Source of the DNA: Rhodospirillaceae bacterium
GTDB taxonomy: Bacteria; Pseudomonadota; Alphaproteobacteria; Rhodospirillales; Rhodospirillaceae
Length of the DNA stretch: 64,000 nt
NCBI GenBank assembly: GCA_947476695.1
Contig: CANJRD010000003.1
Coordinates: 62,001 to 126,000 of the forward strand
Reading direction: 5' to 3'
Part shown: in pieces, positions 36,406 through 39,380 of the stretch
How positions within the stretch are numbered: the first letter of the stretch is position 1
How the letters are laid out: every line of letters starts with the position of its first letter
Program-made: the position numbers and the translations under genes
Notes under the pieces: model-generated
Database searches by the model: none
Seen by the model: only the letters and a program-made list of their open reading frames with translations
Told to the model about the DNA's origin: nothing

Positions 36406-36445
36406 ATCCGCTTTGCCGATTTGTGCGATTTGGACGCACCTATCG

Positions 36446-36473
36446 AATAACCCTCGGCCAGCCTTAGGTTATT
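36446..36473 (+). terminator. Weak hairpin after trpE
   Basis: Arms AATAACC (36446-36452) and GGTTATT (36467-36473) around 14 bases, 41 bases after the trpE stop, preceded by a smaller GTGCG/CGCAC hairpin (36423-36439). The following sequence is TCGCG, not a U-run, so termination would be partial at best. Confidence 0.4.
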
Positions 36474-36499
36474 TCGCGTCGCACATTTGCGTATGATAA

Positions 36500-36540
36500 A
36501 GGCATGTGAAAGCCTACCAGTTACCCAGAGCCCCTGCTCT
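36500..36540 (+). promoter_or_regulatory. Two small stem-loops in the leader of the DUF3034 cassette
   Basis: AGGC-N8-GCCT (36500-36515) and AGAGC-CCCT-GCTCT (36527-36540) lie about 100-140 bases before the DUF3034 start, in the 236-base gap after trpE. The gap is less GC-rich than the coding regions. They do not match a riboswitch class I know. Their reality as RNA structures is untested. Confidence 0.3.
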
Positions 36541-36641
36541 ATCACAAGTGTATATCCATCCGCCGAAAACGAGAGAAAATCTCCTGTTGTGCCTGTAAAC
36601 AGCCAGATGAAATTCTACTCAAAGTGTCGCTGGCCGGATCG

Positions 36642-37535
36642 ATGTCGCAGTTCATATTCACAATCCTCCTGCTCCTGACGCAACCCGTCTGGGCGCAAGA
36701 TGATGAAGGCGCAAAACCACCGCCGCAGCAGCTTTTCGATCGCGGTCGATTGCTGGCCACCGGTGGTGTGTCGCAAGTGGAAGGTGCCGGCGGCGGCGGC
36801 CTGTCGACCTGGGCGCTGATCACGGGTTACGGCTCACGCGATGCCATCGGCGCCAATGCGCACTACACGTTCGTGGGGACGTCGGACTTCCACCTCAACA
36901 CCGGGGGCGTTGCGGTCGGGCTGTTCGACCGGGTGGAACTCTCCTACGCCCGCGTCGCTTTCAACACGCGTGACGCCGGCGCCAAGCTCGGCCTCGGCCG
37001 TGGGTTCACGTTCCATGAGAACGTCTATGGCGCGAAGCTGAAACTGTTCGGCGATGCGATCTTCGATCAGGATCGCTGGTGGCCGCAGGTCTCCATTGGC
37101 GTACAGCACAAGACCAACGACCGCGGCGCCATCATTCGCGCGATTGGCGGGAAGTCGGACAAGGGCACGGATTACTACATCTCGGCGTCGAAGATGTTTT
37201 TGTCGCCGGGCCTTTTAGTGAACGCGACGCTGCGTCAGACCAAGGCCAACCAATTCGGCATCCTTGGTTTCGGCGGCGACAAGAGCAATGCCTATCACAC
37301 GGAGTTCGAGGGCGCGGTCGCGCTGCTGCTCAGCAAGCGCTTTGCGATTGGCGCGGACTATCGGACCAAGCCCAGCAACCTGAGTTTCGCGCGCGAGCAA
37401 AACGCCTTCGACGTCTTCGCGGCGTTTTTCCTGAACAAGCATTTATCGGCGACGGTGGCCTATGTCGGACTGGGCGACATCGCGTTGCAGGGCCGTCAAA
37501 ACGGCGTCTACATCTCATTGCAGGCCGGTCTATGA
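36642..37535 (+). CDS. DUF3034-family exported beta-barrel-like protein
   Basis: 297 residues from the ATG at 36642, which begins a clean signal peptide (FIFTILLLLTQPVWAQ). A GTG at 36624 is less likely. The mature part alternates short polar and hydrophobic strands with Gly and aromatic residues (ITGYGSRDAIGANAHYTFV, YYISASKMFLSPGLLVNATLRQ, NKHLSATVAYVGLGDIAL) and closes with a strand ending in hydrophobic residues, consistent with an outer-membrane barrel. This fits DUF3034 as I remember it; function is unknown. Its stop overlaps the haemoglobin start (ATGA), so the two products are made together. First gene of the three-gene cassette. Confidence 0.75.
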   Translation: MSQFIFTILLLLTQPVWAQDDEGAKPPPQQLFDRGRLLATGGVSQVEGAGGGGLSTWALITGYGSRDAIGANAHYTFVGTSDFHLNTGGVAVGLFDRVELSYARVAFNTRDAGAKLGLGRGFTFHENVYGAKLKLFGDAIFDQDRWWPQVSIGVQHKTNDRGAIIRAIGGKSDKGTDYYISASKMFLSPGLLVNATLRQTKANQFGILGFGGDKSNAYHTEFEGAVALLLSKRFAIGADYRTKPSNLSFAREQNAFDVFAAFFLNKHLSATVAYVGLGDIALQGRQNGVYISLQAGL

Positions 37536-37954
37536 CCATGAAGCAAAACATCCTGGCGATCGCCGCACTCCTGTTCGCCACCCAAACGAACGCTGCGGAC
37601 GACAAACTGTATCGCGATCTCGGCGGCACCGAGAACATCGCCCGCTTCGTCCACACCGCCACCGAAGACTGGGTCAAGGATCCGGTCATCGGCTACACGT
37701 TCGACAACCTCAATCTCGAACGTTTCGAGAAGCGCCTCGTGGATCAGATCTGTGAGCTTGCCGGCGGTCCTTGCAAGTACACCGGCCGCAACATGTACCT
37801 CTCGCACAAGGGCCTGCACCTCAGCGAGACGGAGTTCTACCGGCTCTGCGAAGGCCTGCAGACGGCGATGGAGAATGCGCACGTCAGCTTCGGCGCTCAG
37901 AACCGCTTGCTGGTGATGCTGGCCCCCATGAAACGGGACGTAGTCGGTCGATGA
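37532..37954 (+). CDS. Group 1 truncated haemoglobin with signal peptide
   Basis: 140 residues: a signal peptide (about 1-21, cleavage after TNA), then a 2/2 globin (YRDLGGTENIARFV, FEKRLVDQICELAGGPCKYTGRNMYLSHKGLHLSETEF). The proximal haem ligand should be H92 in the SHKGL segment. By hand alignment to mycobacterial TrHbN the usual distal tyrosine at B10 is not present (Thr at that position), which would change oxygen and NO chemistry. Three cysteines (C74, C81, C106) occur in the mature part. Export to the periplasm sets it apart from the usual cytosolic NO-dioxygenase role. It overlaps both neighbours by four bases. Confidence 0.85.
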   Translation: MTMKQNILAIAALLFATQTNAADDKLYRDLGGTENIARFVHTATEDWVKDPVIGYTFDNLNLERFEKRLVDQICELAGGPCKYTGRNMYLSHKGLHLSETEFYRLCEGLQTAMENAHVSFGAQNRLLVMLAPMKRDVVGR

Positions 37955-38271
37955 AAGCCCTCATTCTCATTCCTGCAATCCTGATCGCATGGGCCGCGCA
38001 GTCGCCGGCCAAGGCCGAGGATCAACGCGTCTCACAGAAAGGACGCAAGTTCAACGTCAAGCAGATCACGGTGAAAAGCGGCGACACGATCCATTTCTCA
38101 AACGACGACGAGTTCATCCATCAGATCTATGTCGAGTCACAAAATTTCAAATTCGACTCAGCGGAATCCGAACCCGGCCATGTCATCGACCTGAAGATGA
38201 CACAGCCCGGCGACTACGAAGTTCGCTGTCATATCCACCCGAAGATGCTGCTGAACGTTCACGTGGATTGA
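37951..38271 (+). CDS. Small periplasmic cupredoxin (plastocyanin/pseudoazurin-like)
   Basis: 106 residues with a signal peptide (about 1-22, ending SPAKA). The mature domain of about 84 residues has type 1 copper ligands readable as H57 (FIHQIYV), then C93, H96 and M99 in CHIHPKM. It is the shortest end of the cupredoxin range and resembles proteins annotated as methylamine-utilisation plastocyanins, but no methylamine genes are present. It is last in the DUF3034-globin-cupredoxin unit with a four-base overlap, and is a plausible one-electron partner of the periplasmic globin. That partnership is inferred only from context. Confidence 0.85.
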   Translation: MKALILIPAILIAWAAQSPAKAEDQRVSQKGRKFNVKQITVKSGDTIHFSNDDEFIHQIYVESQNFKFDSAESEPGHVIDLKMTQPGDYEVRCHIHPKMLLNVHVD

Positions 38272-38321
38272 CGCGCCCTGCTGCGGTGCAAGACCGCGAT
38301 GCAATGCCGCTCTGTGCAGAG

Positions 38322-39380
38322 TTACTGCGCCTGCGCGGCCTGCGCCGATTTCAGCTGGCGCCGCTTGAGCACTTCCGTCACCGGCACCAACGCGATGCCG
38401 CGCGCTGCCAACGTGGACAACATCTCTTTCAGCGCCACAACCGTAGCCTCATGCGGATGGCCGATGGCAATCGCACTGCCCTTCGCCTTGGCGGTGGAAA
38501 TCGCACGTTCCATCTCGCTGCGGATCGCCGCCACGGTTTGCGTATTGTCGAGGAAGAAGTCGCGCTCGACTTCCGGCACGCCGGCGGCACGCGCCGCTGC
38601 GGTGCCGACACTGTCGGTGGTGGTTTTTGAATCCAGCCACAGCAGGCCGCGCGCTTTAAGCTCGCTCATCACGATGTCCATCCGCATGCGGTCGGACGTG
38701 AAGCGGCTGCCCATGTGGTTGTTGATGCCGACGTAGCCCGTCCAGCCATCGAGGCCGGAGGCGAGAGCCTTGCGGATCGCGTCCGCATCCATCGCGATGG
38801 TCAAGGCCTGCGGACCCGGATTTTCCTTCCGGTCGCGCGGTTCCATCGGCACGTGGGCCATCAACTCATGCCCGGCGGCGCTCGCCTGCTTCGCCAGGCC
38901 GGCGATATCGGGTGCGTAGGTCATCAGCGAAACCGTCAACGGACCCTGCAGCGCGATCATCTGAAGAGAGTGAGCCCGGTCCAGGCCCATGTCGTCGATG
39001 ACGATTGCCAGTGCTGGACGCGCGGACGGCACATCTGACGGCACCGCGTTTTCCAGCATCAGCGCGGGGGTCTTGGGCGTCGTCTCTTTCGTGACGGGCT
39101 CCACGGCCGGTTCAGCCGCGCGCGGTGCGGTGGGCGCCGGTTGGGGTGCCTGGTAGAACAAGGAAGGCGCGGAGGGCTCCTCCGCCGGCAAATGGATCAC
39201 CGGTCGCGGCGCGGCCCGATTGACCGTCGCCGGTCCCCGCGGGGGCGCCGGCGGGTCCGGCTGCATCATCAGGTCGATGCCAATGCCGCCGGCGATGCCC
39301 AACAGCACCAAAACCGCACAACCGGCTATGAGCGATGGGGCCGACAGGCCGAAAGCGACTTTCTTCTTCCTCGAATTCAT
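38322..39380 (-). CDS. Divergent polysaccharide deacetylase family protein (YibQ-like)
   Basis: 352 residues with an N-terminal membrane anchor (about 13-38), a long Pro/Ala-rich periplasmic linker (about 40-115), and a divergent NodB-type deacetylase fold: [45 protein letters not shown] and [12 protein letters not shown]. The Asp-Asp and His positions of the YibQ group are visible. The family is often encoded beside envC and a ctpA-like protease and is linked to cell-wall turnover; those genes are not here. It converges with the cupredoxin gene and is divergent from trpG. Confidence 0.85.

Follow-up and report, generated by a model that had tools for sequence, protein, structure and literature searches.

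An exported DUF3034 barrel, truncated globin and mini-cupredoxin as the candidate core of a cell-envelope haem/copper sensing module

What could a predicted outer-membrane barrel, a haem-type protein and a copper-type protein be doing together outside the cytoplasm, and does it matter that their genes lie between trpE and trpG? The question is raised by a 64,000-nucleotide stretch of a Rhodospirillaceae bacterium genome (GCA_947476695.1, contig CANJRD010000003.1, positions 62,001-126,000 of the forward strand; hereafter the window), in which a three-gene cassette encodes a DUF3034 protein, a truncated globin and a mini-cupredoxin. Comparison across Pseudomonadota leads us to propose, with moderate confidence, that this cassette forms the core of a conserved module for haem/copper sensing in the cell envelope. 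The original prediction had described a coupled exported unit inserted into the trp region and considered an envelope redox or gas/NO-handling system or a haem/copper delivery route; the coupled unit is supported, a meaningful trp link and the delivery route are not, and a transmembrane receptor that we could classify near the cassette in 71 of 121 loci had been overlooked.

All three genes lie on the forward strand where they had been placed and exceed the Pfam cut-offs. The first (36642-37535) encodes a DUF3034 outer-membrane protein of 297 residues, with a leader and a predicted 12-strand beta-barrel; it matches PF11231 at an E-value of 1.5e-96 and with a score of 323.3 bits (cut-off 25), covering profile positions 1-255 of 255. 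The second (37532-37954) encodes an exported group-I truncated globin of 140 residues (PF01152, 3.1e-9), and the third (37951-38271) a mini-cupredoxin of 106 residues with a leader and type-1 copper ligands (PF13473, 2.1e-8; PF00127, 3.4e-6). The ATGA coupling proposed earlier is real in that four-base overlaps join DUF3034 to the globin (37532-37535) and the globin to the cupredoxin (37951-37954), which makes two overlaps among the three genes. The DUF3034 start is the ATG at 36642, with an alternative in-frame GTG at 36624; thus, of the originally delimited span of 36406-38271, the genes occupy the part from 36642, and the remaining 36406-36641 is non-coding with a G+C content of 0.49. The view of the three proteins, barrel, globin and copper protein, as a coupled unit is supported, their export being predicted from sequence.

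The AlphaFold2 model of the DUF3034 protein (mean predicted local distance difference test score, pLDDT, 80.7; predicted template-modelling score 0.79) places 12 strands within residues 69-296, in line with the earlier suggestion of a probable outer-membrane barrel; residues 1-54 mostly have pLDDT below 50, yet part of this segment is strongly conserved. The best fold matches are FapF (Z 18.8), KdgM (Z 18.5) and NanC (Z 18.1), and the copper-transport barrel PcoB appears at rank 37 (Z 12.8) amid generic barrels; a family missing from this list is not thereby excluded. Since the fold neighbours include many unrelated barrels, the fold assigns no transport function to DUF3034.

To determine how widely the cassette holds together, we searched with PF11231 398 genomes drawn evenly across Pseudomonadota and, as a second set, 61 relatives of the window genome. 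Scanning a single genome from each species further confirmed at least 586 DUF3034 relatives, of which the best 80 were kept. The 121 loci analysed comprise 40 wide loci, these 80 and the window; they include a broken second DUF3034 copy (locus L072, in genome G078) and one contig counted twice (L040 and L089), leaving 120 distinct loci. PF11231 is present in 39 of the 398 genomes and in 28 of 213 genera, and in 4 of the 61 relatives, namely the window genome and three others of the same family; it was not found in two other searched genomes of the window genus.

In 117 of the 121 loci (116 of the 120 distinct ones) the gene immediately downstream of DUF3034, with the same orientation, is the globin, and so the association is not due to chance. 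The exceptions are L072, whose globin has an internal stop, L079, L102 and L152. The co-occurrence proposed as a check is borne out, with the special globin adjacent in all 39 DUF3034-positive genomes (in G348 and G138 the pair is seen only in the short loci L014 and L022) and a cupredoxin within 4 kb in 86 of the 121 loci. A profile built from 55 cassette globins and run on the 398 genomes retrieved 42 globins at 132 bits or more, the next match scoring 91 bits. Forty of these 42 adjoin DUF3034 (39 intact copies and one broken), and the other two (G328, G154) are solo globins that have lipoprotein-type leaders and share both cysteines. In five lower-scoring globins (L192-L195, and L001 of the window genome) the cysteine pair is absent by eye. 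The trees of DUF3034 and globin mirror one another with r = 0.775 (115 loci, computed without a null model). Judged from their sequences, DUF3034 and the cassette globin are near-obligate partners, and the globin forms a distinct clade.

Three side observations concern these globins. The L072 pair (G078:C3:72197-73313) is decayed, with internal stops, and an intact copy lies elsewhere in G078. The second truncated globin of the window genome (L001:1462-1860, forward strand, contig C1) has Tyr at B10 and no leader that could be seen by eye; its neighbours include an Rrf2-like regulator and a frame resembling a c-type cytochrome, and it is likely cytosolic. Tandem truncated globins of another clade, about 500 bp apart, occur in many genomes of the pseudomonadotan family f38 (e.g., G056:C44:10911-11723 and G100:C14:147389-148558).

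What, then, sets the cassette globin apart? The AlphaFold2 model of the window protein (pLDDT 88.6) is that of a group-I truncated globin with the 2/2 fold, matching HbN (1s56) at Z 20.3 over 123 residues with a root-mean-square deviation of 2.8. The leader and the proximal His92 had both been recognised correctly: the protein belongs to PF01152, its leader is hydrophobic and His92 is invariant in an alignment of 55 rows (A2), the proximal His F8 being kept in all 117 relatives. A leader-like hydrophobic stretch is found in 116 of the 117 at a Kyte-Doolittle threshold of 1.6 or above and in 112 at 2.0 or above, counts made without a cytosolic control, and 23 of the 117 have a lipobox-like match. 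The window globin has cysteines at 74 and 81; across the 117 globins, HbN positions 63 and 70 are Cys in 109 and 108, respectively, with both present in 108, neither in 7 and a single one in 1, the last row (L085, where the globin is split) being unaligned. Joint loss of this kind fits a disulfide, by which the globin is probably closed. The distal side is largely apolar, with B10 being Val, Met, Leu or Ile in 103 of 117 (Tyr in 7), E11 Leu in 107 (Phe in 9, Gln in none) and E7 Leu, Phe, Ile or Val in 116; the window globin has Thr B10, Leu E11 and Phe E7. HbN relies on TyrB10 and GlnE11 for O2 and nitric oxide (NO) dioxygenation, and this pair is missing in the window globin (Thr/Leu). NO-selective H-NOX proteins have an apolar pocket that does not favour O2, and by analogy the pocket of the cassette globin would favour NO or carbon monoxide (CO) over O2.

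Such a pocket, together with the known action of NO on cyclic di-GMP (c-di-GMP) in other systems, would suit a module tied to denitrification that guards against, or senses, endogenous NO. The distribution of denitrification genes makes this improbable: NO-forming nitrite reductases occur in 8 of the 39 positives versus 13 of 41 negatives (NirK in 3 versus 10, cytochrome d1 in 5 versus 3), the negatives being hand-picked, with 19 from families that have positives and two (G154, G328) carrying the solo cassette-type globin. The window genome has neither NirK nor a cytochrome d1 reductase, and an FNR/NNR box was found in none of the 121 upstream stretches. A link through gene co-occurrence was accordingly rejected, as nitrite reductases are not enriched in DUF3034-positive genomes.

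The third protein retains the ligand set that had been read from the window, namely H57, C93, H96 and M99 in a C-x2-H-x2-M arrangement, and this set is conserved: the C..H..M part is intact in 85 of 86 cassette cupredoxins and the upstream His is aligned in all 86. The mature length of 84 residues given earlier fits a cut after residue 22, as placed by eye. The window protein is of a mini type with a seven-residue tail after the ligand loop; a long type instead carries a CarboxypepD-like tail, recognised through weak Pfam matches below the cut-off. The co-production of barrel, haem-type and copper-type proteins from one operon is what suggested haem/copper delivery or acquisition across the outer membrane, in which the globin would carry haem and the cupredoxin would be a chaperone for copper, and the PcoB match, though generic in rank, points the same way. 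We consider this quite unlikely. The cupredoxin ligands are of the electron-transfer type, and no delivery partner recurs: ABC ATPases appear in 6 of 121 loci and TonB-receptor-like proteins in 4, at shifting positions (assigned by eye). More generally, no other steady neighbour was found among the 121 loci, the largest cluster apart from globin, cupredoxin and receptors, among clusters named by eye, reaching 7.

The neighbours that do recur are receptors, and they sort with the cupredoxin type. Long cupredoxins accompany dCache_3-type receptors in 57 loci and mini-cupredoxins accompany a four-helix-type sensor in 13 of the 17 mini-cupredoxin loci, with neither crossover (long with four-helix, mini with dCache) seen even once (Fisher 2e-14, a value that ignores kinship). 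No classified receptor is nearby in 12 long loci and 4 mini loci, the window being one of the latter, and one locus has a dCache receptor without a cupredoxin. The four-helix sensor is akin to 4HB_MCP_1 (above the cut-off in L083 and L147, just below it in L076), and ten such sensors align with invariant residues in common. The receptor profiles were drawn from rows of these same loci; L081, L085 and L086 gave the four-helix profile no row and their receptors were found by it. This matched pairing, as read from the sequences, suggests that the cupredoxin and the receptor sensor touch.

The outputs of these receptors are not uniform. All five dCache-type receptors scanned (L039, L045, L054, L068, L104) have GGDEF-EAL domains. 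Twelve of the 13 four-helix-type receptors were scanned, that of L086 running off its contig, and these end in HisKA-HATPase in six (L076, L077, L078, L088, L103, L139), in Hpt-HATPase in one (L147, with Hpt below the cut-off), in GGDEF-EAL in three (L085, L092, L123) and in a chemotaxis (MCP) domain in one (L081), with L083 having the sensor and HAMP only. As the output varies while sensor, cupredoxin, globin and barrel stay constant, the conserved job seems to lie upstream of the output; finding the chemotaxis output raised our confidence in a sensing module from evenly balanced to slightly better than that, and the rivals were lowered to match. Separately, eight Lysobacterales-type loci (L091, L093, L094, L107, L108, L112, L120, L135) pair a long cupredoxin with a receptor-like protein of neither class, and in the two scanned (L091, L108) an output domain was not found.

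From the conservation, gene order, partner pairing, ligand residues and receptor architecture described above, all of them properties of the sequences, we infer the following outline. DUF3034 would form a barrel in the outer membrane; the exported globin, lipoprotein-like in some lineages, would be loaded with haem and present it, with its apolar distal pocket, to the periplasm; and the type-1 cupredoxin, loaded with copper, would act as a redox or ligand relay. Many relatives have a transmembrane receptor whose sensor domain fits the cupredoxin type; there the signal would end, its output being c-di-GMP turnover (GGDEF-EAL), a phosphorelay (histidine kinase) or, in one case, chemotaxis (MCP). 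The signal itself would most likely be a diatomic gas, NO for example, or else the redox state of the periplasm. A more specific version, which we put forward only tentatively, is sensing across the whole envelope, in which a disulfide-stapled, NO-/CO-selective globin by the outer-membrane barrel would signal through the cupredoxin, serving as a metalloprotein ligand, to the inner-membrane receptor; the copper protein and the sensor would have co-diversified into two matched types, with the c-di-GMP, phosphorelay and chemotaxis outputs swapped freely.

Several observations weigh against a sensing module. Neither a cupredoxin nor a classified receptor is found in 34 of the 121 loci, so the DUF3034-globin pair can stand alone. 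The tree distances of DUF3034 and cupredoxin are weakly correlated (r = 0.19, 85 loci). A non-Tyr B10 is also seen by eye in 3 of the 5 lower-scoring globins (L192, L193, L195) and is hence not specific to the clade. The occurrence of the receptor sensor in 37 of 39 DUF3034-positive versus 16 of 359 negative genomes, which in itself speaks for the module, overstates the coupling because some receptors, including one in the window genome, sit in separate operons: in 7 positives the dCache-type receptor lies apart from DUF3034, in 6 of these with its own adjacent long cupredoxin. Finally, neither a single-sequence nor a profile search found a four-helix-type receptor in the window genome; the profile was positive in three control genomes, of which two had contributed rows to it, and gave only weak matches in the relatives G399 (2.7e-5) and G404 (0.0014). 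A parallel operon is also seen in 6 of 12 DUF3034-negative genomes whose receptor region was fetched (L208, L214-L218), in which a long cupredoxin and a dCache-type GGDEF-EAL receptor accompany a protein of 411-417 residues, without DUF3034 or the globin; in the five of these six that were scanned, this protein has outer-membrane or porin family matches below the cut-off. Thus, the cupredoxin-receptor pair can serve another barrel-like protein.

The loci without a classified receptor, 50 of 121 with the window among them, fit another account, in which the cassette serves redox chemistry or detoxification in the periplasm: NO, peroxide or sulfide would be turned over by the globin, the cupredoxin would pass electrons, the barrel would admit or export a small molecule, and the receptor, if any, would only report. 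Copper ligands that are whole in nearly every cupredoxin fit electron transfer, and in cable bacteria a fusion of truncated globin domains with a pentahaem cytochrome has been proposed as a periplasmic terminal oxidase (PMC11976967). However, the Tyr/Gln pair that HbN uses is nearly gone from these globins, as counted above, and no redox enzyme recurs beside the cassette. We therefore judge this account unlikely, though more probable than either delivery or a tie to denitrification.

How does the sensing module fare at the window itself? Its nearest relatives (L088, L077, L076, L081, L083, L078, L103) belong to the mini-cupredoxin type and have a receptor. The window has DUF3034, globin and mini-cupredoxin, the next gene is a convergent YibQ-like one, and no receptor is detected nearby, or by profile in the genome. 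The single dCache_3 match of the genome, on another contig, was considered as a partner and this was weakened, as it sits in its own operon (L157:6907-11466) with a long cupredoxin and a porin-like gene, the frame of the latter being interrupted. The case for a signalling role of this copy therefore comes from its relatives, and the cassette here may be an orphaned core that acts by itself in redox chemistry or gas binding, or through some other partner.

Does the position between trpE and trpG matter? We compared the interval in six relatives (L223-L228), picked for having trpE and trpG within 6 kb; among the 41 genomes searched, many have these genes at a distance from each other or on different contigs. 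All six have an antisense YibQ-like gene between trpE and trpG, and none has DUF3034 there: the gap between trpE and yibQ holds a gene of 492 residues, one of 328 residues, nothing, fragments, a gene of 119 residues or several genes. Moreover, DUF3034 and trpE are on different contigs in the three relatives of the same family that have DUF3034. A role tied to tryptophan synthesis, for which the location in the window is the one argument, is contradicted by these arrangements and has a negligible probability; the location looks incidental. The YibQ-like divergent polysaccharide deacetylase (38322-39380, reverse strand; PF04748, 1.4e-75), which had been counted with the cassette, is convergent with it and is a neighbour, not one of its members. 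As a separate observation, the trpE/YibQ gap (36406-38321 in the window) carries variable cargo across L223-L228 and resembles an insertion slot.

The non-coding stretch before the cassette (G+C 0.49) and the cupredoxin gene (0.526) are poorer in G+C than trpE (0.662) and the window as a whole (0.636), which is consistent with late acquisition without proving it. The upstream stretch contains a 7-bp inverted repeat (AATAACC, 14 bp, GGTTATT; 36446-36452 and 36467-36473) that is a possible operator or stem. Of five consensus patterns sought in 121 upstream stretches, whose bounds rest on longest-frame starts that may be wrong, this repeat occurs once, in the window itself; a CueR-like pattern occurs once, and FNR/NNR, Fur-like and NsrR-like patterns do not occur. 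Three mini-type relatives have a tRNA-Met gene shortly before DUF3034, on its upstream side (L076:8526-8602, L078:1556-1632, L083:8665-8741), hinting at a tRNA-linked site; none was found in L077 and L088.

Has such a module been described? In the open-access literature that we searched, which mostly excludes subscription papers, we found neither a description of it nor a function for DUF3034, a Pfam family of unknown function. The term DUF3034 occurs in the available passages of PMC12548924 and PMC4255298, both in contexts differing from this cassette, and the module is also absent from the passages available from PMC3770913, PMC6450195, PMC11102522, PMC4320434 and PMC11976967. RefSeq annotates one run in Caballeronia as DUF3034, group 1 truncated hemoglobin, methylamine utilization protein and EAL protein, naming the four genes singly; judging by these searches, the individual parts are known and the system is apparently not in print. 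The present comparison joins four annotations (DUF3034, the exported globin clade, the cupredoxin and the matched receptors) as one system that can be tested and that occurs in roughly one in ten of the Pseudomonadota genomes sampled (39/398). If the proposal is true, haem/copper sensing outside the cytoplasm would feed c-di-GMP, histidine-kinase or chemotaxis signalling.

The cassette proteins resemble several known systems in part. The DUF3034 model shares its barrel topology with the 12-strand outer-membrane barrels FapF, KdgM and NanC (Z 18-19), but identity to them is 11-12 % and unrelated barrels score close behind; its likeness to the amyloid exporter FapF is one of fold. The globin shares the 2/2 fold, the proximal His F8 and, in the window protein, the GGP-x-x-Y motif with Mycobacterium tuberculosis HbN (1idr/1s56), from which it differs by the leader, the conserved cysteine pair, the apolar B10/E11 of most members and the operon with DUF3034. 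The cable bacteria proteins likewise include a truncated globin domain proposed to be periplasmic, fused there to a pentahaem cytochrome (PMC11976967), whereas here the globin is a free protein accompanied by a barrel and a cupredoxin. Amicyanin, plastocyanin and pseudoazurin share the His and C-x2-H-x2-M ligands, and the Cupredoxin_1 and Copper-bind profiles exceed their cut-offs on the cassette protein, yet it falls far under the NCBIfam equivalog cut-offs (plastocyanin 23.2 of 87.85 bits, amicyanin 22.1 of 110.2, pseudoazurin 17.7 of 109.85). The methylamine utilization (mau) system enters through the RefSeq label 'methylamine utilization protein' on a long cupredoxin relative. Haem proteins coupled to c-di-GMP enzymes are known from H-NOX, NosP and globin-coupled sensors, which are cytosolic and belong to other domain families; a Pfam scan at E-values up to 0.1 reported no H-NOX domain in the three cassette proteins. 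In placing an exported partner beside a transmembrane c-di-GMP sensor, the proposed module is like the NspS-MbaA type, a pair of periplasmic co-receptor and GGDEF-EAL receptor; it differs in that its partners are of copper type, haem type and barrel, and that its outputs would be c-di-GMP, a phosphorelay or chemotaxis.

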